From contig JACRLR010000067.1 of the NCBI GenBank assembly GCA_016219645.1, positions 1-64,000 of the forward strand: a stretch of DNA of 64,000 nucleotides, in the 5' to 3' direction. Below the pieces are notes generated by a model. That model worked only from the letters and a program-made list of their open reading frames with translations. It did no database searches and had not been told where the DNA came from. Position numbers and translations under genes: made by a program. Below, in pieces: positions 45,114 through 59,151 of this stretch (position 1 is the stretch's first letter; each line of letters opens with the position of its first letter). The stretch comes from Nitrospirota bacterium (GTDB taxonomy: Bacteria; Nitrospirota; Nitrospiria; Nitrospirales; Nitrospiraceae).

Positions 45114-45590
45114 ATGAAAGCTAAAGAGGGCGTCATCAACATTCTCAATAAGATTTTGACAGCGGACTTGACGGCAATCAATCAGTACTTTGTCCATGCC
45201 AAGATGTGTGAGAATTGGGGCTACGAACGCCTCCATCATAAAGTGCGAGAGCGCAGCATGGCTGAGATGAAGGATGCCGATGAACTCATCGGCCACATTC
45301 TTTATCTGGATGGTGTGCCGAACGTGCAGCGTATGAATACGGTGCAGGTGGGCGAAACAGTTCCTGAGCAGCTCAAGCTCGATCTCAAGGCGGAGCAGGA
45401 AATGTTGACGTTGCTCAGCGAAGGCGTGGTGCACTGTACGAAGGTAGGCGACTTTACAACCCGCCATATGTTGGAAGATATGGCGAAAGACGTCGATGGG
45501 CATATCGATTGGATTGAGATGCAGATGGAAACGATCAAGCAGGTCGGTCTTGAAAATTATCTCGCCGAGCAGATTAAGAAGGACAGCTGA
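45114..45590 (+). CDS. bfr: Bacterioferritin-like protein with an altered ferroxidase centre
   Basis: The protein is 158 residues, a normal bacterioferritin length, with clear four-helix similarity (TAINQYFVHAKM, GHIDWIEMQMETIKQVGL). The haem-binding Met52 is present. Of the six usual di-iron ligands, Glu51, Glu94 and His130 are kept, but position 18 is Asp, position 54 is Asp (normally His) and position 127 is Val (normally Glu). Such altered subunits occur in two-component bacterioferritins, where one subunit binds haem and the other oxidises iron. It is a single gene with a GAAAGGGGAG ribosome-binding site, next to the iron region. Confidence 0.9.
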   Translation: MKAKEGVINILNKILTADLTAINQYFVHAKMCENWGYERLHHKVRERSMAEMKDADELIGHILYLDGVPNVQRMNTVQVGETVPEQLKLDLKAEQEMLTLLSEGVVHCTKVGDFTTRHMLEDMAKDVDGHIDWIEMQMETIKQVGLENYLAEQIKKDS

Positions 45591-46133
45591 CTCACGAATC
45601 TCGTCGAATCGGACAGAGTTAGGCCGTCGAAGGAAGAGCAACGAAGGCAAAGAAAGGGTAGTAGGCTCGCACGATCAACAGGATCTCATTCACAACGAAG
45701 CGTTGGTTTTCCAGCTGCACCGAGGAATCGTTTGGACAACAACTTGGCCTTTCGAGTACTGGCAGAGACGGCCCGCCCTTGCGTCCCCCACGTGCGTACG
45801 GTTGCCCTGAAGGTCTTAGTCCACCGCATATTTCCTCCATACCGGTCAGCTCACTCCTTGACCGGAAACTTCAGCCATCTGCTATGGCACTGGTGATTGA
45901 GGAGACTGCGGCGGAAGCTCCCGCAACGGCTGTCTCTCTTTGCCCGCCAGCCTTCTCATCAGGTTTCCCCCTTATCCCTCGAAGTCCTTTGGTCTGGCCT
46001 GCGGATCAGTGAACGGATTTTCGGCACACCGCCAATATGGTAGCGGGGAGCTCGGTAAAATGAGTGAGCCCTTTCGCTGGTGAAGTGGTAGGCAGACTCC
46101 CACTTCGATGCCGATGTGCCGGTGTCCGGATGG
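45591..46133. other. 543-base stretch without a supported gene
   Basis: No frame here shows a recognised family. A 73-codon leftward frame (45619-45840) has an AAGGAG upstream but its composition is not convincing. A CCGGTCA/TGACCGG inverted repeat lies near 45842-45866. The stretch separates bfr from the convergent HD-GYP gene and may hold decayed coding sequence. Confidence 0.4.
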
Positions 46134-46826
46134 TCATTGGCTATTGTCACGCAGGGCTTCGTCCGCTGCATGACTCGCCAAGGCCTGCGCAAGCGCTTCT
46201 ACAACGGAGGGGTCGAAATGGGTTCCTGATGAGATGAAAAGCATCCTCAGAGCAATGGCATTGCGCAAGACGTAATCGTAGACACGAGGAACCTTGATGG
46301 CGTCAAAGGCGTCAGCGACGGATAGGATTCTCGCTCCGAGCGGGATGAACTTCCCCCTGATGCCGTAAGGATACCCAGATCCATCCCACCGTTCGTGGTG
46401 GTGTGCGATGAGGATGGAGGCCTCTTTTATGAAGATAAATGGGTCAAGCAATGTCGCGCCAAGCCGCGAATGATTCTGAAGGGCGACGTAGTCTTCAGAT
46501 TCAAGCAGATATTTGCCCGCTGAGAGGTGGGCGGGAAGCATCAAGATCCCAATATCGTGGAGAAAGGCGGCAAGTTTCAGATCGTGCAACTCGCATGAAG
46601 TCAGATCGAGTACTTGTCCAATCAGTAACGAGATCGTAGCAGTTCTCCGGCCATGGCCTCTCTGCCAGGGGAGTGCGCGATCGATTTCTTTGCTGACTTG
46701 CCGGACGAGGATGCTTTCGACGTCACGGCGTGATGCCAGAGGGAGTCGAAGACGATCGATCTTTCGGAGCATCGCCTGCGTCGTGATGATCGCCGGGTGA
46801 ATCTGCTCAGAGATGTAAGGTTGCAT
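46134..46826 (-). CDS. HD-GYP domain phosphodiesterase
   Basis: The protein is 230 residues from the ATG with GGAGGAG upstream. The HD-GYP motifs are all visible: FLHDIGILMLP (HD), the mid His in NHSRLG, HHERWDGSGYP (HHExxDGxGYP) and ILSVADAFDAI. Family members hydrolyse cyclic di-GMP. No receiver or sensor domain is attached; the N-terminal 60 residues are short and helical. It is separated from the membrane-protein gene upstream by a strong terminator, so it is transcribed independently. Confidence 0.9.
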   Translation of the reverse strand: MQPYISEQIHPAIITTQAMLRKIDRLRLPLASRRDVESILVRQVSKEIDRALPWQRGHGRRTATISLLIGQVLDLTSCELHDLKLAAFLHDIGILMLPAHLSAGKYLLESEDYVALQNHSRLGATLLDPFIFIKEASILIAHHHERWDGSGYPYGIRGKFIPLGARILSVADAFDAIKVPRVYDYVLRNAIALRMLFISSGTHFDPSVVEALAQALASHAADEALRDNSQ

Positions 46827-46844
46827 CGTTACTCCTCCAAGAAA

Positions 46845-46885
46845 ACCCAGAGCCCAAGACCACATCGTGATCTTGGGCTCTGGGT
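46845..46885 (-). terminator. Rho-independent terminator after the flavin/membrane-protein operon
   Basis: A perfect 15-bp stem (46845-46859 with 46871-46885, ACCCAGAGCCCAAGA) encloses an 11-base loop. On the minus strand the right arm runs into TTTTC. It ends the leftward operon whose last gene is at 46933-47451. Confidence 0.8.
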
Positions 46886-46932
46886 GAAAGACCTCTGGCC
46901 GTAATCTATGCCGAGCGTCATGGCACGTCAGG

Positions 46933-47451
46933 TCATTCTTCTGCCCCGTGTTTTCCTGCCATCAGAGGTTGTTTCAGGATCCACATCTCGTAGAGAGGGA
47001 TCGTCATCATGATGAGGAAACCCACCGTCATGAGGGTATCGCCTGTCAACATCGTGAGTACAAAAATGGGTGAGATATAGCTGATGAGCCAAGGAGACAG
47101 GAGGTCCAGCATGACGCCACCGAACGAGATCCAGGTCGTGATAAATTTCAACCGGTTGCCGGCATTGGTGAGATAAAGCACATGCACCAGAATCATAAAT
47201 ACAACCGGCATCGTAAAGAGATGGAAATGAGTGATTTCTGCCAGTTCCCTGAACGACATCGGCTCGCCAAATGTGGCATCCGATCCCCGGTAATGATTGG
47301 CAATCCCTTGCGGCGAGAGCCCTGTCATGCTGTGGGCCCAGAAAAATGAAAAGGCAAAACCGGCCAACATCAAGAGGAGAAAGAAGGTGTAAACCAGCCG
47401 GATGTGTCGATCTGAATCACGGAGGCGGAAGCGGGTGTTGAAGTTGCGCAT
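46933..47451 (-). CDS. Four-helix membrane protein with conserved-looking histidines, partner of the FMN protein
   Basis: This 172-residue protein has four hydrophobic helices (about 18-40, 75-96, 103-125, 128-158). Histidines lie at the ends or within helices: His40 at the end of TM1, His75 and His77 at the start of TM2 and His90 inside TM2. This arrangement could bind b-type haem, but no known cytochrome motif is present. It starts 24 bases after the FMN-binding gene, in one operon. I infer an inner-membrane electron-transfer role, for example passing electrons between the quinone pool and the flavoprotein. The family is not recognised. Confidence 0.7.
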   Translation of the reverse strand: MRNFNTRFRLRDSDRHIRLVYTFFLLLMLAGFAFSFFWAHSMTGLSPQGIANHYRGSDATFGEPMSFRELAEITHFHLFTMPVVFMILVHVLYLTNAGNRLKFITTWISFGGVMLDLLSPWLISYISPIFVLTMLTGDTLMTVGFLIMMTIPLYEMWILKQPLMAGKHGAEE

Positions 47452-47475
47452 GATTGAGAAGGTCGTCGCTCCTGA

Positions 47476-48165
47476 TTAGTTTCCAAAGATGGAGCCAAAA
47501 ATCCCCTTCTCCGATTTCCTCGCTGCTACTGTGTCGCTGCCGAGTCCTGCCGGCTTGAGATAGAATTCATCGACTAGGACGAGGGCGCGCTTGACACCGG
47601 CGCTGATTGAGCGAACGGACATGGTGGCGCCAGTAATGTTGATGATGTCTTTGTTGATGCGAACAGGATCCTGAACGGTCTTGCCTTCGTATTGCACATT
47701 GAATCGTTTGGTTCGAACTTCGCTGCCTTTGGCCTCACGAAACACCAATAATTCCACATTTGTACAAGCTCCTGCGGTATCGACTCCGACCAGATACGTC
47801 ATATGTTTATGTTTGCCGATGGTATTTTGAATCAAGGCGTACCCGTCAATCTGAGCGCCGGTCTCGCCGATGTAGAACTCGAACACTTCCTCGGGAAACT
47901 TCCAACCGATCCGTTCTTCTATCTGAGTCTTTCTCTCGGCCGTCAGCCGGATGAGGTCTTTCCGAATTCGGCCGGACTTCGGGAACGTAAGTTTTAAAGC
48001 ATCATCCTCCGTCATATAGACATCGGCGTGGTTTATTTCCTCCTCGCTGAGATATCGGTGCAGATCGTTGTCCCAGATCCGTTCCGCCGAAAATGCATCG
48101 GTGGCGGAGAACATGAGGACCGCGCAGATGGTTGTGATGTGGATCGGCCTTATGTGAGTGAACAT
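47476..48165 (-). CDS. Exported FMN-binding domain protein (covalent flavinylation site)
   Basis: The protein is 229 residues. A signal peptide (1-27) ends near FSA. The C-terminal FMN_bind domain carries the flavinylation motif TGATMS at residues 178-183; in NqrC/RnfG relatives FMN is attached as a phosphoester to the Thr in this motif, here Thr181. A helical N-terminal domain contains EVFEFYIGE. It acts in the periplasm or at the outer face of the membrane. It overlaps the upstream lipoprotein gene by 16 bases. An ApbE flavin transferase is encoded 3 kb away. Confidence 0.88.
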   Translation of the reverse strand: MFTHIRPIHITTICAVLMFSATDAFSAERIWDNDLHRYLSEEEINHADVYMTEDDALKLTFPKSGRIRKDLIRLTAERKTQIEERIGWKFPEEVFEFYIGETGAQIDGYALIQNTIGKHKHMTYLVGVDTAGACTNVELLVFREAKGSEVRTKRFNVQYEGKTVQDPVRINKDIINITGATMSVRSISAGVKRALVLVDEFYLKPAGLGSDTVAARKSEKGIFGSIFGN

Positions 48166-48632
48166 CCGTGTTCTTTCATTTTGGCATTCAGACGATTCTG
48201 TACATCATGCCGAACCTCCTCGGAAGGATCTGTCTCAGCCCAACCAAAAAGACGCGAGCCTCCTCGAAAGACCCAGCTCTGTCGCTCCTCGGCATAGGTG
48301 ACCCGAATGACCTCTTCAGTTGCAGGTTCGACATCTACACGTTTGACGGTGAGAAACAGTCGGGACCGATCTTTGCTGTCAGGCACGTCCCGTCGAAGGA
48401 CGCCGAAACTCCGTCCGGGCATCGGGATTTCCACCCAGGCAGTCTCAATGAGTCCTCGATGCTTGTCCTTGACGGTGACAGAGCGATCCTTCACTGCGTC
48501 TAAGGCCGCGTCCCAGACATGGTCGTATGTGCATACGGCGTAACGCTCTTGAACGCCACTGAGGGAGGCGCAACTACTCAGGATGGCGCATGAGACGAGT
48601 AGGATGACACTATGAGAACCGTGGTACCACAT
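48150..48632 (-). CDS. Lipoprotein of unknown function
   Basis: The protein is 160 residues from the ATG at 48632 (13 more residues are possible). The signal peptide ends in a lipobox-like LSSC. The rest is mixed alpha/beta with VWDAALDAVKD and a conserved-looking GLIETAWVEIP, recalling DUF3576/BamC-like or NlpC-type periplasmic lipoproteins, but without a firm match. It lies between the porin and FMN-binding genes in the same operon. Confidence 0.65.
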   Translation of the reverse strand: MWYHGSHSVILLVSCAILSSCASLSGVQERYAVCTYDHVWDAALDAVKDRSVTVKDKHRGLIETAWVEIPMPGRSFGVLRRDVPDSKDRSRLFLTVKRVDVEPATEEVIRVTYAEERQSWVFRGGSRLFGWAETDPSEEVRHDVQNRLNAKMKEHGCSLT

Positions 48633-48690
48633 ACAGGCTCCAGAGGCTTGCGTCGCGTTGAAGCGACGCAAGCCTGAAACAGGAACAGAC

Positions 48691-50172
48691 CTAGAAGTAT
48701 GTTGCTGCCATAAATAAGAAACCGTTGCCGTCTATACGCGTCGTTTGATTGTTGCTCGGATTGTTCACAAAGTTGGTAACGCTCGTGTTTTCCTGGGTGT
48801 TGAACATGTAGCTGAATTTGAATACCGTGTCCTCAATCGGTCGGAAGTTGAGGCCAATCGTCAACCGTTCAAGTTCCCGTTGGTTGCTGGGCTGGCCGTT
48901 AGCAAGTCTTGAGTTATCACTTGTGTCTGTATCCACCGTCTCCCATCGGACAGTGGCGGTGAATGTCGAAGCTTCCGTAAAATGCGTCGGCGCAAGCCTC
49001 CTCAGAAACTCCGGCATGAAATGATAGTTGCCTTGGACGTAGTAGCCGAACATTCCGGAAGGTCCTTGAGTGGTTAAGGTTGTTCCCTGGTTCCCTTCGA
49101 TGCGGGACCAGGCTGCTTCACCGATGACTTCCCATGGGCCGCGTTGGAGTGTCCAGTCGAGGGCATAGATTCCAATGTAGTCGCTTTGATTGTTGACGCC
49201 CGCGGCATTTTTGTTGTTGTACTGGCCGTAGAACGACGATCCGGCGACCTCAATGCCGAGGAAAGGGCTAAATGCCAGACGTCCGACGACAGCTTTATTG
49301 TCGTTCAGATCACGCGAGACGCTGCCGCGACAGTTGCGCATTCCGTTCGTGTCCGTGATGGCGCCTCCTCGTGCGTTACAACCCATTCCGTTGACCACGT
49401 AGACTTCGTAGTCCAATTTTGAAAGCGAACTCGGATACAGGGAGCCGTAGATACCGGCTCCCGTCTCGAACCAGGTGCTGGGAATGATCAGGCGACTGAC
49501 CATAGGCCTATCTGGCAGGTCGTTCAGCGGCGAATCGTGCAAGAGGTTGAACTTGCCGACCGGCATCAAGACCATCCCGCCACGGATGTTGATAGCTTCA
49601 TTGATGAGATAGTCGAGTTGGGCGAATTCAAGGTTCGACGAGCCTGCATTGGTCCCATTCGCCCCGGGAGAATTGTTCCCCCCGCGCTCAAACTCAATTT
49701 CTGTTGCGAACTTCACACGATCGGTAATGTCGGCATAGAGAAAGGGAACCATCCGTTCTTGGTTGAAGGAATTCCTGCTGAGGTTGTCAAGCGTGGGTCC
49801 TGTCAGGGAACCGAACTTAAAGTCTGCATACCCACCAATTATGGCTCTGGGGGCACTTATGAACGGTTTGGCGTACACTAACTTACCTGACCCTGTCGAA
49901 CTGAAGCTCAGGGGGACCTTTTCCTCGCCCTTTCGTTCGACACGAATGTCGGGTATGGGACCTGTCGAAATTGGATACTGGGCTCCAGCAGGAGGAGGCT
50001 CACCCTCCTTCCTCTCCATAGCGCCTTGCCGCCGCTCATGCTCCTGCATCCGCTTGTTGACGGCTTCGTCGACTAATTTTTGAATGTCCTCTGGGGTCAT
50101 GTTCTCAGCCCAAACCGGAGTAAACGGCAAAGCTGTAATCACGAGAGCCCCGAGGATTGACCTGATCCTCAT
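48691..50172 (-). CDS. Outer-membrane beta-barrel porin
   Basis: The protein is 493 residues. A signal peptide ends at about residue 22 (VWA), followed by a short coiled region (EDIQKLVDEAVNKRMQEHERR). A long series of alternating beta strands follows and the protein ends in TYF, the C-terminal aromatic signal for BAM insertion. It looks like a Gram-negative substrate-specific or phosphate-selective-type porin. It lacks the plug domain and TonB box of TonB-dependent receptors. It is the first large gene in the leftward operon with the lipoprotein, FMN and membrane-protein genes. Confidence 0.85.
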   Translation of the reverse strand: MRIRSILGALVITALPFTPVWAENMTPEDIQKLVDEAVNKRMQEHERRQGAMERKEGEPPPAGAQYPISTGPIPDIRVERKGEEKVPLSFSSTGSGKLVYAKPFISAPRAIIGGYADFKFGSLTGPTLDNLSRNSFNQERMVPFLYADITDRVKFATEIEFERGGNNSPGANGTNAGSSNLEFAQLDYLINEAINIRGGMVLMPVGKFNLLHDSPLNDLPDRPMVSRLIIPSTWFETGAGIYGSLYPSSLSKLDYEVYVVNGMGCNARGGAITDTNGMRNCRGSVSRDLNDNKAVVGRLAFSPFLGIEVAGSSFYGQYNNKNAAGVNNQSDYIGIYALDWTLQRGPWEVIGEAAWSRIEGNQGTTLTTQGPSGMFGYYVQGNYHFMPEFLRRLAPTHFTEASTFTATVRWETVDTDTSDNSRLANGQPSNQRELERLTIGLNFRPIEDTVFKFSYMFNTQENTSVTNFVNNPSNNQTTRIDGNGFLFMAATYF

Positions 50173-50303
50173 TGCAAACCTCCATGGATACCATATTGTG
50201 ATAGGTCTGACTCGGGACTCGATGGTCTCTGGTCGTTATTGTTGACAACGATAGATCGTATTTTGGTGGATTGGTGCGAAGCCTCCTTTCGTTGAAGAGC
50301 GCA

Positions 50304-50483
50304 TCATGATGCGACCCTGCTCCATCCTTTGATAGAAGAGAAAGGGATGACAACGATACGTTTGCAGCGTTTGCACTTAAGTTCCAGCCCCTGTCCATGC
50401 ACCTTAGCGATCAGTTGACCGCACTCGCAGCGAGTCTCACTGCAGTCTGCAGAGTGGTCGACCGGAGATATCGCACTAGCCAT
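50304..50483 (-). CDS. Small Com-like zinc-finger protein (59 aa)
   Basis: The core CECGQLIAK and LELKCKRCKRI match the pattern of Mu-like Com proteins, small zinc fingers with two CxxC pairs. The ATG at 50483 follows a GAGG; a longer TTG start is possible. No prophage genes are nearby, so this is probably a domesticated or unrelated regulator. It lies downstream of the Fur-like box and upstream of the porin, so it may head the leftward operon. Confidence 0.7.
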   Translation of the reverse strand: MASAISPVDHSADCSETRCECGQLIAKVHGQGLELKCKRCKRIVVIPFSSIKGWSRVAS

Positions 50484-50511
50484 TATTGGGGCCGCCTCAT
50501 CCAAGTGAAAT

Positions 50512-50526
50512 TGAGAACGATTATTA
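50512..50526. promoter_or_regulatory. Fur-like box in the divergent promoter region
   Basis: TGAGAACGATTATTA matches the 7-1-7 Fur consensus TGATAATGATTATCA at 12 of 15 positions. It lies between the leftward Com-like gene and the rightward lipoprotein-apbE pair, overlapping the leftward -10 region. Confidence 0.5.
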
Positions 50527-50553
50527 ATATCCTATTTTTGGATTCGAAGTCAA
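50524..50553 (-). promoter_or_regulatory. Leftward promoter of the Com-like/porin operon
   Basis: On the minus strand TTGACT (50553-50548) and TATTAA (50529-50524) are 18 bases apart, with a start near 50517, about 34 bases before the Com-like ATG. The Fur-like box covers the -10 region and start site, the position expected for a repressor. Confidence 0.5.
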
Positions 50554-50618
50554 GCGGTGAACGTGTTCGCCAGGATGCAGGATGTATTGGCATCGCAGGA
50601 GGCCTATACTATCTGTGC

Positions 50619-51242
50619 ATGCTTCAGAAGCTGTTGAGACAGCAGTGGTGGTGGCAATCTCTCTGTGCATTGAGCTTGAATCTCTCAGGCTGTGCCACAG
50701 AACTTCCTGTAACAGTGGCAGAGGCTGATGTATCGGGGGCTTTGGTAGTGGGGCGGGTCGCCACGACCATCACCGGGCACTCGCAACGAGTGTATCCACC
50801 TGAACTCCGTTCCTTTGAGCTGATCAATACAGAGAACCAGGAACGATTTAAGATATATGTGAAATCTGCAGACGGGTATTTTTCGCTTTCCCTCCCTCCC
50901 GGACGCTATGCAATTAATCGTGTACAAGTCAGTGAAGGTCCATTCTTGACCATGGCGCAGCTCACGGGAAGCTTTGTGCTCGAGCCTGACGTAGTGACCT
51001 TCCTCGGTACGTGGCATTTTGGAGTGGACTCTCCGAAATACGGACGCCAAGTGATGATCTCCATCATCCATGACGAACAAGATCATCTGCGAGCCCAACA
51101 GTTCGTTAAGGATTCATATCCCACCTTTGACGCCAAGCCTGTGGTGGTGCTGATACCGGAGCCATCGCACGAGCAGGCCCGCTTATTCGAAGTGATGCCC
51201 TATCCAAACTATCCAAGATATTTCCGTCGCCACTGGTGGTAA
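50619..51242 (+). CDS. Lipoprotein upstream of apbE
   Basis: The protein is 207 residues from the ATG at 50619. The upstream open frame is not used because the Com-like gene and the Fur-like box lie there. The signal peptide has a Trp-rich start and a lipobox LSGC at Cys25. The mature part contains YFSLSLPPGRYAINRVQV, a beta-sandwich pattern of carboxypeptidase-regulatory-like domains. It is 9 bases from apbE. The function is unknown. The ribosome-binding site (AGGAGG) is unusually far (16 bases), so the start is uncertain. Confidence 0.65.
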   Translation: MLQKLLRQQWWWQSLCALSLNLSGCATELPVTVAEADVSGALVVGRVATTITGHSQRVYPPELRSFELINTENQERFKIYVKSADGYFSLSLPPGRYAINRVQVSEGPFLTMAQLTGSFVLEPDVVTFLGTWHFGVDSPKYGRQVMISIIHDEQDHLRAQQFVKDSYPTFDAKPVVVLIPEPSHEQARLFEVMPYPNYPRYFRRHWW

Positions 51243-51251
51243 GCGCTATTC

Positions 51252-52274
51252 ATGTCACGCATACGCTCACACATAGCAGTCAACATTCTCGCAGGGCTAG
51301 TGGCGCTACTCGTCGGGTGTGGAAGCCTTGTCACGCGATCCGAGCCTGTTGTCGTGAAACGGGCGCAGATGCACATGGGTACGCTGGTCACGATCACTGC
51401 GGTTGCAAAGAATGAAACGGTTGCCCAAGCTGCGACCACCGCCGGATTTGCCGAAATCCATCGTCTGGAAGGGCTTCTGAGTACATGGATCCCTACGAGC
51501 GAACTATCTCGCGTGAATGCCTCGGCGGGAGTCATGCCAGTCTCTGTGAGTTCAGAAACACTGGCGGTTGTCCAAAACGCGCTTCAAGTTGCGGAGATGA
51601 CCAACGGCGGATTCAATATCGCTATCGGTCCGGCGGTGGACGCGTGGAACGTGATTGAAAGCCAACGAATACCGACAGAGTCGGAATTGGATGAACTCCG
51701 TCCATTGGTAAATCTGCAAGCGGTTCATGCTGACGTGCGCGCCAAGACGATCTTTCTAGAAAAAACAAGGATGCGGATCGATGTGGGGGGAATTGGTAAG
51801 GGCTACGCAGCAGATCAAGCCGCCGAGGCGTTACGGAAGGCGGGTGCTGTTGCCGGTGTTGTGGCCCTGTCAGGAGACATTAAAACGTTCGGTCGATTAC
51901 CTGATGGGAAGCAGTTCCCCATCGGCATTCAACATCCACGACAAGATGGATCGGTGCTAGTCTGGATTGATTTGCAGGACGAAGCGATATCCACCGCGGG
52001 GGATTATGAGCGGTTCTTTGAACGGGATGGGGTCCGGTATCATCATATTCTCGACCCCCGCACGCTTCAACCGGCGCGCGGCTGCCAGAGTGTCACAGTG
52101 ATTGCCCGTGAAGGGGTCTGGGCAGATGGCTTGGACACTGGGATATTTGTCATGGGGGCTGAATTGGGAATGAGGCTGGTCGAAACTTTGCCGGATGTGG
52201 AGGCTATTATCGTCGATGCCGATGGTCGTTTGTTGGTATCCTCCGGATTGCAGCAGCGGATTCGCATGCCATAG
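51252..52274 (+). CDS. apbE: FAD:protein FMN transferase ApbE, lipoprotein
   Basis: The protein is 340 residues with a lipobox LVGC. ApbE signatures are MGTLVTITAVA, VDVGGIGKGYAADQAAEAL, LSGDIKTFG, and STAGDYERFFERDG followed by HHILDPRT. It transfers FMN from FAD to the Ser/Thr of FMN_bind domains outside the cytoplasm. The flavinylation target is most likely the protein at 47476-48165, encoded in the divergent operon. It is paired with the preceding lipoprotein gene. Confidence 0.95.
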   Translation: MSRIRSHIAVNILAGLVALLVGCGSLVTRSEPVVVKRAQMHMGTLVTITAVAKNETVAQAATTAGFAEIHRLEGLLSTWIPTSELSRVNASAGVMPVSVSSETLAVVQNALQVAEMTNGGFNIAIGPAVDAWNVIESQRIPTESELDELRPLVNLQAVHADVRAKTIFLEKTRMRIDVGGIGKGYAADQAAEALRKAGAVAGVVALSGDIKTFGRLPDGKQFPIGIQHPRQDGSVLVWIDLQDEAISTAGDYERFFERDGVRYHHILDPRTLQPARGCQSVTVIAREGVWADGLDTGIFVMGAELGMRLVETLPDVEAIIVDADGRLLVSSGLQQRIRMP

Positions 52275-52301
52275 CAGGATGTGACTAGTCGGCACCTCAG
52301 T

Positions 52302-53243
52302 CTACCGGTCCAGTCGATAACTCATCGGGATTTTGATCGTCATGTCTGGCTTCCCCAATGGGCGAGATAACTGGAATGGAGCTGCTTGCCGTAGGGTTTC
52401 CAGTGCAGCCTTGTCGAGACCGAGGTGTCCAGAGCTTTGGAAGACTTCCACCTCTCCAAGACTTCCATCTTCGTTGATCACGGCTTTCACCACGACCTTT
52501 CCCTCTGCTCGATCCATCCTGGCTGAGGCGGGGTAGCGTTTCAGCTCTTCCACACGACGTAGAATCATTTCAGAGAGCCACCCGTAGTCGCGCTTGGCCT
52601 GAGCATTCGAGGGTAGAGGGGAGACTGCCGCCATCTGCACTGGTGCCGGGACCTGGACAGATGGTTCGATTGGCTCGAGGATTGCTGATGGCGTGCTTAA
52701 CGATGTTGCCTGGGCAGAAGATTCCTCAGAGACTCTCGTCGATTCTTTGGCTGGATTCACAATTGATGAGGCACCGGTGACCATCGGTTCCCGAATTTCC
52801 TGTCTGACTGGCTCAGCTGGCTGTGTCGTGTGAGCAGTCGATTGTAAAGGAATCATTGGTTGCGGTGGATTCGACTCGGTCATCACCGGTGAGGCTGGTC
52901 GCTCAATGATCGAGGGAGTCGTCTGTTGGGTAAGCGGCTGGGGCGACGGAAGGGTCTGGGCTGACGCAGACTGCTGTGCGTGGAGAGAGGAAACCGAGGT
53001 TGTCGATTGAGCCGATCGGGCTGGCGTTTGGTCTCGGGATGATGCCGTCGGTTGAACAGACTGTGTCGGTGACGTCATGGCAACGTCCCATTTGAAGGCT
53101 TCGTTCTGCGGTGCGAGTTGGACTTGCTTCACAAACAAGAGTGCTGTGAACGCCACGGTGCCGTGCAAGAGGACTGAGATAATCCATCCCTGGGCATGCG
53201 CTTCCTTCTGGTCTCCGGAGCGATGTGACCCGGCAGCAATCAC
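52302..53243 (-). CDS. TonB-family energy transducer
   Basis: The protein is 313 residues. One N-terminal membrane helix (about 20-40), then a long Pro/Ser/Gln/Thr-rich periplasm-spanning linker (about 50-215), and a C-terminal TonB domain with YPASARMDRAEGKVVVKAVI and LDKAALETLRQAAPF. It transmits proton-motive energy from ExbB/ExbD to outer-membrane receptors. It is co-transcribed after exbD with a 4-base overlap. No TonB-dependent receptor is encoded in the window. Confidence 0.93.
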   Translation of the reverse strand: MIAAGSHRSGDQKEAHAQGWIISVLLHGTVAFTALLFVKQVQLAPQNEAFKWDVAMTSPTQSVQPTASSRDQTPARSAQSTTSVSSLHAQQSASAQTLPSPQPLTQQTTPSIIERPASPVMTESNPPQPMIPLQSTAHTTQPAEPVRQEIREPMVTGASSIVNPAKESTRVSEESSAQATSLSTPSAILEPIEPSVQVPAPVQMAAVSPLPSNAQAKRDYGWLSEMILRRVEELKRYPASARMDRAEGKVVVKAVINEDGSLGEVEVFQSSGHLGLDKAALETLRQAAPFQLSRPLGKPDMTIKIPMSYRLDR

Positions 53244-53614
53244 AGTCGAATGACCTCCAGGCTGACTTGTTGAAATCCCAACCCCCGCACTTCGTCGACC
53301 ACCGACACGAATCGTTCGAGCAAGGTGACTTTATCCGCCCGCACGATGACCGCCGATTCTCGAGGTTCCACTGTCAGCACACTCTTGAGGCCCCCTTCGG
53401 GAACTGTACGGTCGTTGAGAAAAAGCGTGCCGTCGGCAGTCAGGGTGATGATGATGGGCGCATCGGTGCGAGTCCCGACTTCTTTTGCTTTCGCCAGATT
53501 GACCGGGATCTGTCCGCTGCTGATGAAAGTCGCGGTGGTCAGGACGATGACCAACAATACCAGCATAACGTCCACGAGCGGGATGACGTTGATCTGATCA
53601 ATGTCGCGTTGCAA
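53240..53614 (-). CDS. exbD: Biopolymer transport protein ExbD
   Basis: The protein is 124 residues. The N-terminal helix contains the essential membrane acid in INVIPLVDVMLVLLVIVLTT, followed by a periplasmic beta-alpha domain. It forms the proton-channel motor with ExbB. It overlaps exbB by 17 bases and tonB by 4, so exbB-exbD-tonB is one unit. Confidence 0.94.
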   Translation of the reverse strand: MQRDIDQINVIPLVDVMLVLLVIVLTTATFISSGQIPVNLAKAKEVGTRTDAPIIITLTADGTLFLNDRTVPEGGLKSVLTVEPRESAVIVRADKVTLLERFVSVVDEVRGLGFQQVSLEVIRL

Positions 53615-54029
53615 GGTGTTCCTTGTGTAGGGCCAGAATCTCGGTCACTTTCCGTCTGAGCACATTGTTCATGACGACGCAGGGAATTGCGACGAGCAGT
53701 CCGACCGCCGTGGCTTTCAGCGCGAGGCTGAGCCCAATCATGATGGCATTGACAGCCATGGTGCCGGAGGTGCCCATCGTGTGGAATGTTAGCATAATAC
53801 CAAGCACGGTGCCCAATAAGCCAATATAGGGAGCATTCGCGGCCACTGTGCCAATGATAACCAGGCGTCTGGTCAGAACCATTTCCAATCCCAGGCTGTC
53901 GGGGTATTGGGCGAGATCGACACGGCGGTAAAAAAGCCACCGCTCCACCGCAATGGCCATTGTCCAGATACTGAGTGCCAGCAGAAGCCCGATGATTCCG
54001 TAATCGACCACGTCTTGTAACGCGTTCAT
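53598..54029 (-). CDS. exbB: Biopolymer transport protein ExbB (MotA/TolQ family), short form
   Basis: This 143-residue protein has an N-terminal helix and two C-terminal membrane helices, with NAPYIGLLGTVLGIMLTF and LALKATAVGLLVAIPCVVMNNVLRRK typical of the TolQ/ExbB pore helices. It is shorter than E. coli ExbB, which has an extended cytoplasmic part. It starts the exbB-exbD-tonB unit; the 121-base gap upstream has no convincing promoter. Confidence 0.92.
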   Translation of the reverse strand: MNALQDVVDYGIIGLLLALSIWTMAIAVERWLFYRRVDLAQYPDSLGLEMVLTRRLVIIGTVAANAPYIGLLGTVLGIMLTFHTMGTSGTMAVNAIMIGLSLALKATAVGLLVAIPCVVMNNVLRRKVTEILALHKEHLATRH

Positions 54030-54150
54030 GGGGGAGGCCTCGAGTCCTCTTCGTGATTCACGGATCAGTGTGGCAGGAGACCGTGATGAGGGTCTATCAA
54101 TGCCAGATCGTGAAAAAGCCTGTCAATGCTTGTCAAACCTGCGAGAACGC

Positions 54151-55275
54151 CTATCCGGTGGAATCCTCTCGACGAAAGAGCACGGTATGGGTTGCCAGGA
54201 CACGAACTTCTACCGGCGTGCCGGCCTGATAGATGCTCGTGGAGCCTTGGCTGCTATGGACGATTTGGCCGGAGGGGAGACTGACTGTGTACAGATTCTC
54301 CGAGCCACGGAATTGGCGAGAGAGGACTCGTGCCCGGGCACCTTTCGTGGGGACGAGGTGAATATCGTCAGGCCGAATCATGACGACCACGGCAGTGCCG
54401 TCTTTGCACTCGATCGTGTCGGGAAACTCTCCCAGTTCGGTGCGGACCATACCCTGGGAGACGGTTCCAGGAACGAAGTCTGCCTGACCGACAAAGTCGG
54501 CTACGAATGGTGTGGCCGGCATGTGATAGGTCATCTCCGGTGTGTCGAACTGCTCTAAACGGCCTTGGTTGAGGACTGCAATTCGATCGGCCATGGCAAA
54601 CGCTTCGTCGTGGTCGTGAGTCACGAGCACCGTCGTTGTTTTCGTTCGGCGTAACAGATCGTGCAGTTCTTGGCGCATGCGACCAGCCATGTCAGGGTCC
54701 AAATTACTGAATGGCTCATCGAGCAACAGCACGACGGGATGCTGGACAAGGGCGCGAGCCAGCGCGACTCGCTGTTGCTGGCCGCCTGATAATTCGTGCG
54801 GATACCGCCGCTCGAATCCTTCCAATCCTGTAAGGCGCAACATTTCCTGGACCCGGGCGGCGCGTTCACTTCGAACAAGGTGGCGGAGTCCAAAGGCGAT
54901 GTTGTCCTGCACGCGCAGGTGAGGAAACAGCGCATATTCCTGAAAGACCATCCCGACGCGCCGGTTCTCCGTGGGCACTGTCACGTCCGGAGACGACACA
55001 AGTTGGCCCGATAAGAACAGTTGGCCTGAGCGAACTGGTTCGAACCCGGCGATCGCCCGCAGAATCGTCGTCTTCCCACATCCCGAAGGACCAAGCAGGC
55101 AGAGAATCTCCCCTTCTCGTGCCGAGAAGGAAATTCCCTGGACCGCGGGGTGTCCCGGCTCGTAAGCGCAGGATACAGCACGCAGCTCTAAAACTGAGGA
55201 GGCGGGTGTAAAGAGGTTCCCCTCAAATGTGGTCTCCATCGAATGCGCTGGTGCGGTTGAACGGTCCTGGGTCAC
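54151..55275 (-). CDS. fbpC: ABC transporter ATP-binding protein, ferric-iron type
   Basis: The protein is 374 residues. Walker A GPSGCGKTT, signature LSGGQQQRVALARAL, Walker B LLLDEPFSNLDP and the switch His in VTHDHDE are present. A C-terminal TOBE-like regulatory domain follows (VVMIRPDDIHLV). This architecture is typical of FbpC/PotA ATPases. It powers ferric import with FbpA and FbpB, encoded directly upstream. Confidence 0.88.
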   Translation of the reverse strand: MTQDRSTAPAHSMETTFEGNLFTPASSVLELRAVSCAYEPGHPAVQGISFSAREGEILCLLGPSGCGKTTILRAIAGFEPVRSGQLFLSGQLVSSPDVTVPTENRRVGMVFQEYALFPHLRVQDNIAFGLRHLVRSERAARVQEMLRLTGLEGFERRYPHELSGGQQQRVALARALVQHPVVLLLDEPFSNLDPDMAGRMRQELHDLLRRTKTTTVLVTHDHDEAFAMADRIAVLNQGRLEQFDTPEMTYHMPATPFVADFVGQADFVPGTVSQGMVRTELGEFPDTIECKDGTAVVVMIRPDDIHLVPTKGARARVLSRQFRGSENLYTVSLPSGQIVHSSQGSTSIYQAGTPVEVRVLATHTVLFRREDSTG

Positions 55276-55294
55276 TGGATCAACATTCCTTCTA

Positions 55295-56878
55295 TTAAGC
55301 GGCGCGCCAATCTTTCGAGACCAGCAAGGCCAGCGCCGGGAGGCTCAGCAAGACAATGAGAAGTGCCGAAGGAGCAGCGAGTTGAAAATACTCCTCGCTC
55401 GCTTCCATCCAGACACGAATGGCCAGGGTGTCGAATCCCACCGGCCGCAACAGGAGGGTCGCTGGTAATTCCTTCATGGTCTGGAGAAACATCAGGACCC
55501 AGGCCACGACAAATCCATTCCGAACGAGTGGTAGCGTCACCCGTCGCCAGGTGTCACGCATTCCGAGGCCAAGGGTGCGCGATACCTCTTCCAGATTCGG
55601 CGACAGTTGCTGGAGTGCCGGCTCCAGTGACTGGAGTCCGGCGGGGAGAAAGTGGATCACGTAGGCCACGATGAGGATCAGCGCCGAGCCATAGAACACC
55701 GGAGCTATTGTGGTGAAGAGAATGAGAACAGCCAGTGCCGCCACAGGTCCGGGAAGCACATAGCCGGCATAGGCTGCTTGTAGGCAGCTCAGGTTCAGGA
55801 GGGTCGGCCTCCGACAGGCGAGATAGGCAAGCGGCAAACCGATCAAGACACCGCCAGTGGAAGCACCGGCGGCCAGGATGGCGCTGTTCCAGACGAATCC
55901 AAAAAACCGGTTGTCGATGGTCGCTAACGCCTCGGGCGACAGGCTCCATTGAATCAAGAGTGTGGTTGGGAGTGCGAAGGCCGCGCCAACGATCAACCCT
56001 AGATAGCTGATGACTGCAAAGGTACCGAGCCGGCCATAGCGATGCCGTTCCGGAGCTCGATAGCGGCCGGTGGTCTGATAGAACCGGCTCCGTTGGCGGA
56101 ACCACCGTTCAGTGATCAGGAAAATCAGCGCGATCACGACCAGCAGAAGGCTCAAGATGCTCGCCGCGGTATTGTCGGACCGTCCGGTCATCTGTTGAAA
56201 CACGGCATAGGTGAGCGTCTGGTAGCGAAGCAATGACACAGCACCGAAGTCCGAGACGACGTACAAGATGACCAGCGCAAGGCCGGCGGCGATCGAGGGG
56301 CGCATCAGCGGCAATGTCACGCGCCAGAGGGTCGCGAGACGTGAGACGCCGCTGGCTCGTGCCACTTCCTCGAACGATACGTTCATACTGAGGAGGGCAC
56401 TACGGCTGAGGAGATAGACGAAGGGAAACGTATCCAACGCCATGACGAGCGTGGCGCCCCAAAAACTGTGGGGAGAAAAGATTCTCGCTTGTGGACCGGC
56501 TGCCAGCTGCCAGAGATGCTCGACAGGCCCACCGAATCCCAAGAGGTAAGAGTAGACATAGGCCAATACGTATGTCGGCATCGCCAATGGAAGCACCAAG
56601 GCGCCTTCCCATAGCCGACGACCGGGAATCTCTACACGCGTGATCAACCAGGCGGTTGAGACGCCCAGGATCAGCGTGACGACTGCCACGCTGGCAGCCA
56701 GCGAGACGGTATTGAATAAGAGCTCTGGAATGCGGGTCGTCCACAAGCGCTGCCAGACGACCGGGTCGGCTGAGAGGGCTTGTGCGGTAACATAGCCGAG
56801 CGGGAGCAGGATGATTCCCGCGCTGGCGAGCGCGAGGAGTTGTAGCGGCGACGCAAATTGGTGGCGAGTCGTGACCAC
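55295..56878 (-). CDS. fbpB: Ferric-iron ABC transporter permease, fused two-domain type
   Basis: The protein is 527 residues with about twelve membrane helices forming two BPD_transp_1 halves. Each half has an EAA-type loop: EEVARASGVSRLATLWRVTLP and EEVSRTLGLGMRDTWRRVTLP. This duplicated permease layout is characteristic of the FbpB/SfuB ferric transporters. It lies 16 bases after fbpA. The GTG start is assumed. Confidence 0.9.
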   Translation of the reverse strand: MVTTRHQFASPLQLLALASAGIILLPLGYVTAQALSADPVVWQRLWTTRIPELLFNTVSLAASVAVVTLILGVSTAWLITRVEIPGRRLWEGALVLPLAMPTYVLAYVYSYLLGFGGPVEHLWQLAAGPQARIFSPHSFWGATLVMALDTFPFVYLLSRSALLSMNVSFEEVARASGVSRLATLWRVTLPLMRPSIAAGLALVILYVVSDFGAVSLLRYQTLTYAVFQQMTGRSDNTAASILSLLLVVIALIFLITERWFRQRSRFYQTTGRYRAPERHRYGRLGTFAVISYLGLIVGAAFALPTTLLIQWSLSPEALATIDNRFFGFVWNSAILAAGASTGGVLIGLPLAYLACRRPTLLNLSCLQAAYAGYVLPGPVAALAVLILFTTIAPVFYGSALILIVAYVIHFLPAGLQSLEPALQQLSPNLEEVSRTLGLGMRDTWRRVTLPLVRNGFVVAWVLMFLQTMKELPATLLLRPVGFDTLAIRVWMEASEEYFQLAAPSALLIVLLSLPALALLVSKDWRAA

Positions 56879-56894
56879 GGTGAGTCCCTTCGAG

Positions 56895-57935
56895 TTACCG
56901 GAGACCCACTTGTTCGATCAGGGTGAGAGTCGGCTCGCGCAGTTCGGCCAGTTTGGTGAGAGGGACCAGTGCCGCGCGGAAACTCTTCCGATCCATGAGA
57001 GCCGGGTCCGCTTTCACGTCCTGGTGGAGAGGATATTCCTTGTCGAGTTCCGCAAATAGCTTCTGCCCTGCTTGAGCGACTAAGAACTCCACGAGCAGTT
57101 TGGCGCTGTCGAGATGCTTGGTCGACTTGACGATACCGACGCCTGCGATGTTCATGATCGCCCCCATGCCACCCTCTTGCTGGTCCGGCATCAATGCCGC
57201 GATCGGTGCGTCAGGCTGGGTGGCCAGGTGCCGATAGATGTAGTAGTGATTCACAATACCCAGCGCAACCTGCCCCTTGGCGACTGCATCCACAATTTGA
57301 GAGCTTTTCTGGTAGACCTGGTTGTCCGCATTGGCCTTGATGCCTTGGAGGAATTGCCTTGTTTTTTCATCGCCATAGGTTGCACGGATGACCGACACGC
57401 CGGCTTGTAAATACTCACTGCCAGAGTTCGGAATCGCAATCTTATCCTTCCATTTTGGATCGGCAAGGTCCAGGAGAGAACTCACTTGGTCCGGCTGCAC
57501 CATCGTGCGGTTGTAGACCACAATCCAGAATCGTCCGGAGAGCCCTACCCAGGCATTATCCGGCGCGCGAAATTGCGACGGAATGGCTCGGTCGATTTCC
57601 CGCATATTCAAGGGGCGGAGGAGACCGGCTGTTCGGGCCAGTTCCAAGCTGCCGGCGTCATTGGTAATGAAGAGATCCGCCGATGTGCGATCGCCTTCAG
57701 CCTTCAGCCGATTCAGCAATTCCGTCGTGCCGGAGGACAACAGCTGGATCTGAATCCCGGTAGTCGCCGTAAAGGCATCGAGGACTGGCTTAATGAGGCG
57801 TTCCGAACGGCCGGAGTAGATTGTGAGGCTATCGGCGGCTGGGGCAGAGGGTACGAAGGCCCCCACAATGAAGAGCAGAAAGAGACTTGAGAGGACTGTT
57901 CGGCGCAGGGTGGGGAGAGAGCATACAAATAACAT
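56895..57935 (-). CDS. fbpA: Periplasmic ferric-iron-binding protein FbpA
   Basis: The protein is 346 residues with a signal peptide ending near PAAD. The mature protein starts LTIYSGRSE, with GLSGRFWIVVYN, IPNSGSEYLQ, and the adjacent tyrosines in NHYYIYR that bind Fe3+ in FbpA-type ferric-binding proteins. It captures ferric iron in the periplasm for FbpBC. A consensus promoter and Fur-like box lie upstream, so it is probably iron-repressed. Confidence 0.9.
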   Translation of the reverse strand: MLFVCSLPTLRRTVLSSLFLLFIVGAFVPSAPAADSLTIYSGRSERLIKPVLDAFTATTGIQIQLLSSGTTELLNRLKAEGDRTSADLFITNDAGSLELARTAGLLRPLNMREIDRAIPSQFRAPDNAWVGLSGRFWIVVYNRTMVQPDQVSSLLDLADPKWKDKIAIPNSGSEYLQAGVSVIRATYGDEKTRQFLQGIKANADNQVYQKSSQIVDAVAKGQVALGIVNHYYIYRHLATQPDAPIAALMPDQQEGGMGAIMNIAGVGIVKSTKHLDSAKLLVEFLVAQAGQKLFAELDKEYPLHQDVKADPALMDRKSFRAALVPLTKLAELREPTLTLIEQVGLR

Positions 57936-57959
57936 GGGTGGTCCTTATGGAATTGAAAT

Positions 57960-57974
57960 TGATAAACTGTCTCA
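57960..57974 (-). promoter_or_regulatory. Fur-like box at the fbpA start site
   Basis: On the minus strand TGAGACAGTTTATCA matches the 7-1-7 Fur consensus at 11 of 15 positions and lies just downstream of the -10 box, overlapping the expected transcription start. The fur-family gene is adjacent. Confidence 0.45.
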
Positions 57975-57976
57975 AA

Positions 57977-58005
57977 ATTATACTAAAAAAAAGGTGGTGC
58001 GTCAA
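57977..58005 (-). promoter_or_regulatory. Promoter of fbpABC
   Basis: On the minus strand TTGACG (58005-58000) and a perfect TATAAT (57982-57977) are separated by 17 bases. The -35 box overlaps the stop codon of the Fur-family gene. Confidence 0.75.
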
Positions 58006-58433
58006 TGACGGCAGGATGAGCAGAGTCCGTAGAGCTCAAGGCGGTGGTTCTTGATGGTAAATCCATTCCTGGTAGCGACTTCCTCTTGGAGCCGCTCGAT
58101 CTCCTCATTCTCAAATTCCACGATCTTCTCGCAGCCGGTGCAGATGAGGTGGTCGTGGTGGCCCTTGTGCGAGACATTGTCATACTTCGTCTGAGAGCCG
58201 AAGTGTCTGGCTTGAGCGAGGCCGGCATCGCAGAACAGATTGAGTGTCCGATAGATTGTCGCCAGCCCAAGATGAGGATCAGCCTTGGCCAGTTGGTGAT
58301 ACATAGCCTCTGCGGTAATGTGTTCTTGCCGGAGGAAGGCACTGAGAATCAGCTCACGCTGGCGTGTGAGCTTGAGTTGATGCTTACCCAGATGCTCCTT
58401 CAGAGCCGCCATTTCTTTCACATGCTTCCCCAT
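58002..58433 (-). CDS. fur: Fur-family metal-responsive transcriptional regulator
   Basis: The ATG at 58433 follows GGAGG; 8 additional residues are possible. The protein is 143 residues. The winged-helix DNA-binding half has KLTRQRELILSAF and HLGLATIYRTLNLF. The dimerisation half has the His-rich metal site KGHHDHLIC and two CxxC pairs, CTGC and CSSC, which form a structural zinc site. Fur/PerR-type sensing of iron is likely; the fbpABC neighbourhood favours Fur. It is transcribed toward fbpA, about 65 bases away. Confidence 0.92.
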   Translation of the reverse strand: MGKHVKEMAALKEHLGKHQLKLTRQRELILSAFLRQEHITAEAMYHQLAKADPHLGLATIYRTLNLFCDAGLAQARHFGSQTKYDNVSHKGHHDHLICTGCEKIVEFENEEIERLQEEVATRNGFTIKNHRLELYGLCSSCRH

Positions 58434-58587
58434 CACGGGCCTCCGATAGGGCCTCATTAAAGACGAAACTGCCTATCTGGTCAAGGGGGTTCTGTGCGTC
58501 ATTGACAGAAGGTGGATGAATTGACGGAAATCTCCGACGCTGTCTATAGTGCAGCCTGCAAAATCGGACGGACGGGCGACTATCAGG

Positions 58588-59151
58588 ATGCGGCAACCCA
58601 ACCAGATTACGGTCGATCGGGCTCTCCTGCTCTATGTGCTGCACCGTGCTGAACCCTTTGGGCTGCTCAGCGACGTGAAACTACAGCAACTGTGTTTTCT
58701 GTGCGAGCTGCAGATGTTCGGCAAGGGTTTCAAGGGCTTCCATTTTGAGTTCTTTCGGTTTGCCTATGGAGCCTTCAGTAAGGACCTCGATAACGACCTG
58801 ATGTCGTTGCGTCGGAAAGAACGGGTGGAAAACTTCACGCTGTCGGACCAAGCCCAGGAAGAAATTATCCCCTTGCTGGAGAAAGGTATTGAAGGAGTTG
58901 AGACGAACGAGAAGATTGCAGAGATTCTGAAAGCTGTGGTGACGACCTACGGCCCACAGGACAGCGGGGCGATCACTCAGTCGGTCGAATCAGTCGAATT
59001 GAGCACCCCTCAGCAACCGGAGTTCAAGATCCCGATTCGCGACATTGTCTTTCACACGACGCTCTTAGTGCCGGCTCGCATCGAGGTGCAGGCGGAGTTC
59101 ACATTACCCGCTGCAAGCTTGGTGAGGCTGAATCAGGCGATGGGATACTGA
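58588..59151 (+). CDS. Uncharacterised protein, possibly DUF4065/YwgA-like
   Basis: The protein is about 187 residues from the ATG at 58588; a GTG at 58549 is possible. The pattern of a helical N-terminus with VKLQQLCFLCEL followed by FRFAYGAFSKDLDNDLMSL resembles the Panacea (DUF4065) or YwgA-like fold, which occurs in antitoxins and small uncharacterised proteins. No toxin gene is adjacent, so an antitoxin role is not supported. It has a hairpin terminator immediately after the stop. Confidence 0.6.
   Translation: MRQPNQITVDRALLLYVLHRAEPFGLLSDVKLQQLCFLCELQMFGKGFKGFHFEFFRFAYGAFSKDLDNDLMSLRRKERVENFTLSDQAQEEIIPLLEKGIEGVETNEKIAEILKAVVTTYGPQDSGAITQSVESVELSTPQQPEFKIPIRDIVFHTTLLVPARIEVQAEFTLPAASLVRLNQAMGY

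Follow-up and report, generated by a model that had tools for sequence, protein, structure and literature searches.

A predicted Fur-regulated flavoprotein cassette with an undescribed four-helix membrane protein in Nitrospira and related Nitrospirota

The first 64,000 nucleotides of contig JACRLR010000067.1 (the window), from a Nitrospirota bacterium whose genome assembly (GCA_016219645.1) comprises 3.65 Mb in 71 contigs with a completeness of 100, contain a gene cassette that encodes a porin, a lipoprotein, an exported protein with a flavin mononucleotide (FMN)-binding domain (FMN_bind) and a four-helix inner-membrane protein (TM4). Divergent from these are genes for a second lipoprotein and for the flavin transferase ApbE, and genes for iron transport and a Fur-family regulator lie next to them. 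The cassette is real and conserved in gene content and adjacency, with a sole ApbE/FMN_bind pair and a conserved Fur box, and its membrane component TM4 matches no described family. We consider with moderate confidence that the cassette encodes an envelope reductase that uses flavin, is repressed by Fur and serves iron assimilation, probably by reducing ferric iron.

All the genes named in a preliminary description of this DNA are open and lie in the order and at the positions given there. The leftward unit, on the minus strand, consists of the porin (48691-50172), lipoprotein A (48150-48632), the FMN_bind protein (47476-48165), TM4 (46933-47451; 172 residues, the proposed electron donor to the flavoprotein) and an HD-GYP gene; the rightward unit, on the plus strand, comprises lipoprotein B (50619-51242), which seems accessory, and ApbE (51252-52274). 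Signal peptides and lipoboxes were called by eye: the FMN_bind protein has a Sec-type signal, lipoprotein A a lipobox and two more invariant cysteines, and ApbE, of the lipoprotein type, a lipobox. The FMN_bind protein passes the curated Pfam cut-off (PF04205, 32.1 vs 22 bits), and ApbE gives a full-length profile match (PF02424, 279.9 bits, positions 1-266). No Pfam match was obtained for TM4, the porin or lipoprotein B of the window, and lipoprotein A matched only below the cut-off.

The flavinylation motif is (S/T)GATx(S/T). In the window it reads TGATMS (47617-47634, minus strand), and by analogy we take its Thr181 to be the residue that receives FMN. GATMS is invariant in 19/19 aligned relatives, and the members outside the order carry SGATLS (six of seven) or SGASLS (one of seven). 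The genome itself gave a single ApbE match and a single FMN_bind match, zero NqrB/RnfD matches over its 71 contigs, and zero PepSY_TM (PF03929) matches, so that it has no PepSY-like ferric reductase partner by profile. By these searches, which covered FMN_bind as the substrate family, ApbE and the FMN_bind protein are its sole predicted flavinylation pair. In five genomes (G154, G189, G192, G203 and G211; genomes, loci and families carry the prefixes G, L and f) the two are fused in a single frame of 501-508 residues beside TM4 (L158 5107-6630, L159 8394-9905, L160 7495-9000, L161 7942-9465 and L162 10228-11754). By eye, the fusions show no signal peptide ahead of ApbE and a Tat-like motif of the RR type between ApbE and FMN_bind; the Pfam TAT match in the L161 fusion was weak (E 0.11). 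With one polypeptide carrying ApbE, a Tat-like signal and FMN_bind in these other orders of the class, the natural reading is that FMN would be attached in the cytoplasm prior to export, an internal translation start being the alternative.

The preliminary description had proposed to score the co-occurrence of these genes in related genomes, and they do co-occur. TM4 was found in 39 of 41 genomes (40 relatives and the genome itself), and 35 loci were extracted. TM4 and FMN_bind are present in 35/35 of these, FMN_bind being partial in L034 and, at a contig end, in L035; lipoprotein A and the porin are present in 33/35 and absent from these two loci. At L034 9431-11417 (G024), TM4 and apbE enclose a truncated FMN_bind, with no porin and no lipoprotein A, owing either to a deletion or to an assembly fault. 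In a scan of named genomes, restricted to the best 80 of 158 relatives and in which many contigs were short, we counted TM4 in 80 loci, FMN_bind in 80, lipoprotein A in 76, the porin in 75, the HD-GYP gene downstream of TM4 in 67, apbE in 63, fbpB in 45 and the inconstant lipoprotein B in 21. These 80 are titled Nitrospira, Nitrospirae, Nitrospiraceae or Nitrospirota, bar two 'uncultured Nitrosospira', and by TM4 the closest named relatives of the window among them are Nitrospira and metagenome-assembled genomes of Nitrospiraceae. Finally, 198 Nitrospirota genomes were drawn evenly, and 64 of them gave a TM4 match, 58 being counted as flavin-linked; the other six (G170, G047, G048, G051, G082 and G193) had only matches that were of a sister-clade type, partial or unread, and in G082 (L167) the TM4 match has a weak FMN_bind-like neighbour without a GAT motif. 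FMN_bind adjoins TM4 in all 58 flavin-type genomes, on the same strand and within 228 bp (median 28), and ApbE was found in 57 of them, the exception (G018) having a run of N at the position of apbE. ApbE was also matched in 24 of 28 further genomes; the unmatched ones (G002, G014, G027 and G034) are 77-90% complete.

Candidate Fur boxes were scored against a 19-base consensus, with ten Markov shuffles of the 64 kb as control. The sequence at 50513-50531, in the divergent promoter region, agrees with the consensus at 15/19 positions. This is the best match and the sole such score in the 64 kb, and it was reached zero times in the ten shuffles. The box lies inside 26 consecutive bases (50506-50531) that are identical in 13/13 aligned divergent regions of Nitrospira, each from another species and the window included, while the flanks diverge; the identical 19 bases are also present in L034 and L039, outside that alignment. 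In family f2, the same 19 bases are found in L060, and L058, L061 and L062 score 14/19, 13/19 and 11/19. The second of the two boxes claimed earlier fared less well: at 57955-57973, before fbpA, it scores 13/19, which is not significant alone (10 places score at least 13, vs about 4.5 expected), and the same or a near-same form of it recurs in L037 and L047. In Nitrospira the cassette has a conserved predicted Fur box and is very probably iron-regulated.

Beyond apbE, the window contains, all on the minus strand, tonB-exbD-exbB (52302-54029), the genes of a ferric ABC transporter, fbpC-fbpB-fbpA (54151-57935), and a gene for a Fur-family regulator (58002-58457), in agreement with the preliminary description. 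TonB was recognized by Pfam (TonB_C, 61.5 bits) and FbpA by comparison with the PDB, where 29 distinct sequences, mostly named iron-binding, matched at E<=1e-10 (best 8.9e-52); ExbB, ExbD, FbpB and FbpC were named through sequence and synteny, without a family search. The best NCBIfam model for the regulator is Fur (PRK09462), with 111.1 bits vs a cut-off of 146, so that it is not certified as that equivalog. A fur or fbp gene was seen in 24 of the 35 order loci, and six of the 11 others (L032, L035, L038, L039, L046 and L051) are on short contigs or end soon past the porin. In f2 (L058, L061 and L062) the order is fur-fbpA-fbpB-fbpC-porin-lipoprotein-FMN_bind-TM4 on one strand, and in L064 (f4) an apparent tail of a TonB receptor lies beside TM4.

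Six families outside the order have iron genes beside the cassette (fur in five of them, FeoB in one), and in four of the six ApbE is fused to FMN_bind. The arrangements are fur-porin-[ApbE-FMN_bind]-TM4 in f5; fur, then porin-[ApbE-FMN_bind]-TM4 in f9; [ApbE-FMN_bind]-TM4-fur-porin-fbpB-fbpC in f7 (two genomes); fbpA-fbpB, fur, porin-[ApbE-FMN_bind]-TM4 in f10; fur-porin-FMN_bind-TM4, with a ferritin gene close by, in f22; and FeoB, then porin-FMN_bind-TM4 in f17 (G046). Thus all seven flavin-type loci read outside the order have fur or feoB near, in gene orders that differ. A candidate fbpA in the f7 clusters was rejected: the gene is a porin in L161, and it is 82% identical in L160.

Five Nitrospira-family genomes of the 198-genome draw (G141, G156, G194, G205 and G217) lack TM4 and FMN_bind. 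G156 could not be retained as a case of TM4 loss, its contig ending just beyond apbE, and G205 and G217 also have no ApbE match and only weak FbpB matches. G141 and G194, whose genomes are small (2.0 and 1.7 Mb), have no cassette but retain fbp genes together with fur, exbB and tonB. Both have a TonB receptor in the cassette's slot, between tonB and topA or bfr, the two receptors being 61% identical and that of G194 closest to FecA (6e-48). The receptors in the cassette slot are at L193 15116-17446 (FecA-like) and L194 2267-4636.

TM4 is 60-95% identical within the order. The preliminary description had called it a four-helix, histidine-bearing protein, and with a wider alignment it was modelled as four long helices with a predicted local distance difference test score (pLDDT) of 88.5 and a predicted template-modelling score of 0.80 (pLDDT 72.6 in an earlier model). 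It had no Pfam or NCBIfam match at E<=0.1, and at this threshold matched none of the Pfam profiles of known flavinylation partners (NapH-like, MsrQ-like, PepSY-like, DsbD, Nqr/Rnf-like and DUF4405). Against PDB sequences, three insignificant matches (E 0.48-0.67) were obtained over residues 23-59, all to cytochrome b subunits, and neither model gave a Foldseek hit at E<=0.001. His75, His77 and His90 are invariant in 24/24 aligned members of the order. His75 and His77 are also invariant in the 31/31 rows of the superfamily, whereas His90 is present in 24/24 flavin-linked rows and in 0/7 other rows. His77 and His90 are 13 residues apart in one helix. As a separate observation, 11 Nitrospirota genomes encode small proteins (132-147 residues) with an HxH motif (L226-L236, e.g. 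L230 5025-5435) and with a match to the C-terminal part of subunit I of heme-copper oxidases (hhalign 98.4%).

In the sister clade of TM4, six of seven rows carry a CxxCH insert, the heme-c motif, between helices 1 and 2. The split between the flavin-linked and heme-c types has a branch support of 99/98, with a warning of long branches from the tree program. Other CxxCH proteins share the locus with heme-c TM4 in L168, L171, L172, L174 and L176, and a Rieske protein and a cytochrome b lie beside it in L168. One kind of CxxCH protein, with the motif at its N-terminus and 395-421 residues long, is found in L168 and L172 and, farther away, in L174; two of these three gave porin matches, one of them above the cut-off. 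Because most of the sister clade carries the heme-c motif, the flavin of the cassette may take the role of heme c.

The porin of the window is weakly Porin_O_P-like. At E<=0.01, 10/23 relatives match Porin_O_P (PF07396), the window protein not being among them, and the porin is 25-31% identical to the members aligned from outside the order. By hhalign it matched the cytochrome-porin with 96.5% over 274 columns, vs 90.9% over 118 columns for another porin used as control, 21% for the cytochrome-porin against that control porin, and 1.3% for the cassette porin against FecA. Sequence support for a kinship with the cytochrome-porin is modest, because the control porin also scored 90.9%, and these comparisons do not establish the porin as an MtrB-type conduit. 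In some Nitrospira a second porin gene lies directly downstream of TM4 (L048 10673-12190, L050 10445-11962 and L191 11380-12969).

We propose that, when iron is scarce, Fur would leave the box at 50513-50531, so that both divergent units, porin-lipoprotein-FMN_bind-TM4 and lipoprotein-apbE, would be expressed. ApbE would put FMN on the exported FMN_bind protein, at Thr181. TM4, presumably with its N-terminus inside, would draw electrons from the membrane pool, from quinol or from a cytosolic donor, and hand them to the flavoprotein near His75/His77. Hemes b on His77 and His90 are a probable route through TM4, the 13-residue spacing fitting a homodimeric di-heme bundle, and, by analogy with the FezC homodimer, two hemes could be housed in a dimer of TM4. 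The flavoprotein would then reduce Fe(III), or a ferric chelate let in by the porin, to supply iron for FbpABC or FeoB. We infer the electron flow and its direction, the topology, the binding of heme, all the chemistry and Fe(III) as acceptor.

Several observations weigh against this proposal. FbpABC imports Fe(III), so that the need for a reduction is not obvious. The cassette is also found without a nearby fbp gene: L054 (G035) has no fur or fbp gene in 20 kb, four f4 loci have none in the flank covered (some of these flanks being small), and in G180, G185 and G219 the cassette is accompanied by fur, in G180 and G185 also by exbBD, and the 20 kb covered contains no fbp gene. Among the six f3 regions, a significant box was present in L055 (16/19), the other five giving p values of 0.08-0.17; upstream of the f4 porin, L063, L064 and L066 score only 10-11/19, L065 reaching 17/19. 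The profile comparison of TM4, whose binding of heme is putative, finds no known cytochrome relative, and the reductase as a whole is proposed from sequences and models. The iron-regulated flavin electron-transfer system put forward in the preliminary description is supported, because of the co-occurrence of its genes, the iron linkage in other families and orders and the conserved Fur box; the direction of the electrons, the binding of heme or quinol by TM4 and Fe(III) as acceptor go further than these results.

We considered the possibility that the flavin cassette replaces an envelope heme-c relay under iron limitation and that its acceptor is not iron, e.g. a periplasmic oxidoreductase or a disulfide partner. 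The well-supported sister clade with CxxCH in most of its rows and the further CxxCH proteins in its loci are in line with such an iron-sparing role, and Fur control is compatible with either role. Yet no conserved acceptor enzyme was noticed in the cassette, whereas the iron transport genes are conserved, and a FecA-like receptor takes the place of the cassette in two genomes; we regard this explanation as unlikely. A broader idea, which we offer tentatively and with low confidence, is that TM4 would be the first of a new class of proteins for electron transfer across the membrane, with two sister forms. One would be a heme-c form, with the CxxCH insert, without His90 and, in some loci, beside cytochrome-porins; the other a flavin form, without the insert, with His90 and partnered by a porin that lacks heme and by FMN_bind as a protein of its own, acting across the envelope as a Fur-switched, iron-sparing flavin relay that reduces ferric iron and is flavinylated before export in the fusions.

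Electrons could also run inward, with surface or periplasmic Fe(II) being oxidised to feed Fe(III) to FbpABC or to curb Fenton chemistry, as with the cytochrome-porins of iron oxidisers. Some heme-c relatives of TM4 adjoin a CxxCH-porin in a Cyc2-like layout, and Cyc2 homologues are reported in Nitrospirales (PMC9040806). This nevertheless appears improbable, FeoB beside the cassette in G046 suiting reduction. FMN_bind flavins are low-potential donors and poor oxidants of Fe(II). It would be quite improbable, too, that the neighbourhood is mere inherited synteny and the flavin set unrelated to iron: gene order is largely inherited within Nitrospira, with topA and bfr adjoining, but six families from outside the order again have iron genes, in differing arrangements, and the Fur box stays identical where its flanks diverge. 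The idea that TM4 might be a miniature protein of the heme-copper-oxidase type, with O2 or NO as its substrate, arose from VIA-align, in which oxidase subunit I ranked first (Z 7.9, root-mean-square deviation 4.2, 139 aligned residues, 16% identity), and from the HxH motif, which resembles the HxH helix of the oxidases. For helical bundles, however, a Z below about 13 means little, and the profile comparisons by hhalign with COX1 and with the true four-helix COX1-like proteins (mini-COX) were insignificant (A7 vs mini-COX, E 0.058; A7 vs COX1, 0.17; A1 vs mini-COX, 0.47), whereas mini-COX vs COX1, compared as a control, reached 98.4%. We treat this kinship as a lead only, and such a function as extremely improbable. 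The ferric reductase remains the reading that we favour.

Three neighbouring genes deserve mention. A gene for a bacterioferritin-like protein lies to the left of the cassette (45114-45590, plus strand; PF00210, 112.1 bits), as described earlier; the alteration claimed for its iron site is a possible one. The protein has MKDAD where the typical one has MKHAD. A bfr match was present in 53 of the 80 named loci, with two in tandem in many. The HD-GYP gene downstream of TM4 (46134-46865, minus strand; HD_5, 111.7 bits), which the preliminary description left unnamed, suggests a possible link with cyclic di-GMP. An uncharacterised protein of 200 residues (58549-59151) adjoins fur, and has the same neighbour in f2, f3 and other f1 loci.

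Among known systems, Meheust et al. 2021 (PMC8238504) describe NapH-like, MsrQ-like, PepSY-like, DsbD and Nqr/Rnf-like partners of flavinylated proteins, with links to iron, to which a 2024 follow-up (PMC11334425) adds DUF4405 and FezC, the latter modelled as a homodimeric heme-b protein with heme-binding histidines. Neither 'Nitrospir' nor 'porin' occurs in the main text of the former or in the searched text of the latter. As in the PepSY-like/DUF2271/ApbE clusters of PMC8238504, ApbE, an exported flavoprotein and a membrane electron-transfer protein are here tied to iron uptake and Fur, but the membrane protein is not PepSY, the substrate is FMN_bind, and a porin and a lipoprotein are conserved. 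TM4 resembles DUF4405 and FezC (PMC11334425) in being a small membrane protein with conserved helix histidines and a flavinylation or iron link; unlike them, it has no DUF4405 match, four helices and another pattern (HxH and His90). The P19/FTR1 clusters (PMC8238504) also place an FMN_bind protein next to an iron transporter, yet no P19 or FTR1 was among the Pfam matches of the scanned cassette proteins, which are accompanied by Fbp, TonB-ExbBD and a porin instead. In cyanobacterial reductive iron uptake, reviewed in PMC7676907, ARTO acts with FutABC/FeoB and, as proposed here, an inner-membrane redox protein serves periplasmic ferric reduction beside an Fbp-type transporter; ARTO, however, is a terminal oxidase, in place of which the cassette has a flavoprotein and TM4. 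The text consulted of PMC9040806, on Manganitrophaceae, names Cyc2, but FMN, flavin, ApbE and Fbp are absent from it. Meheust et al. 2021 (PMC8238504) brought up the replacement of heme by flavin as a general idea.

Among the titles and abstract openings listed, none concerns this cassette or iron acquisition by Nitrospira, supplements and most subscription journals being outside the search. Nitrospira are central nitrifiers with a heme-rich respiration and a high iron demand. A sole flavinylation system under predicted Fur control, whose membrane protein is undescribed, would offer a mechanism of iron reduction that can be tested directly, and the sister heme and flavin forms of TM4 may represent a case of flavin replacing heme.

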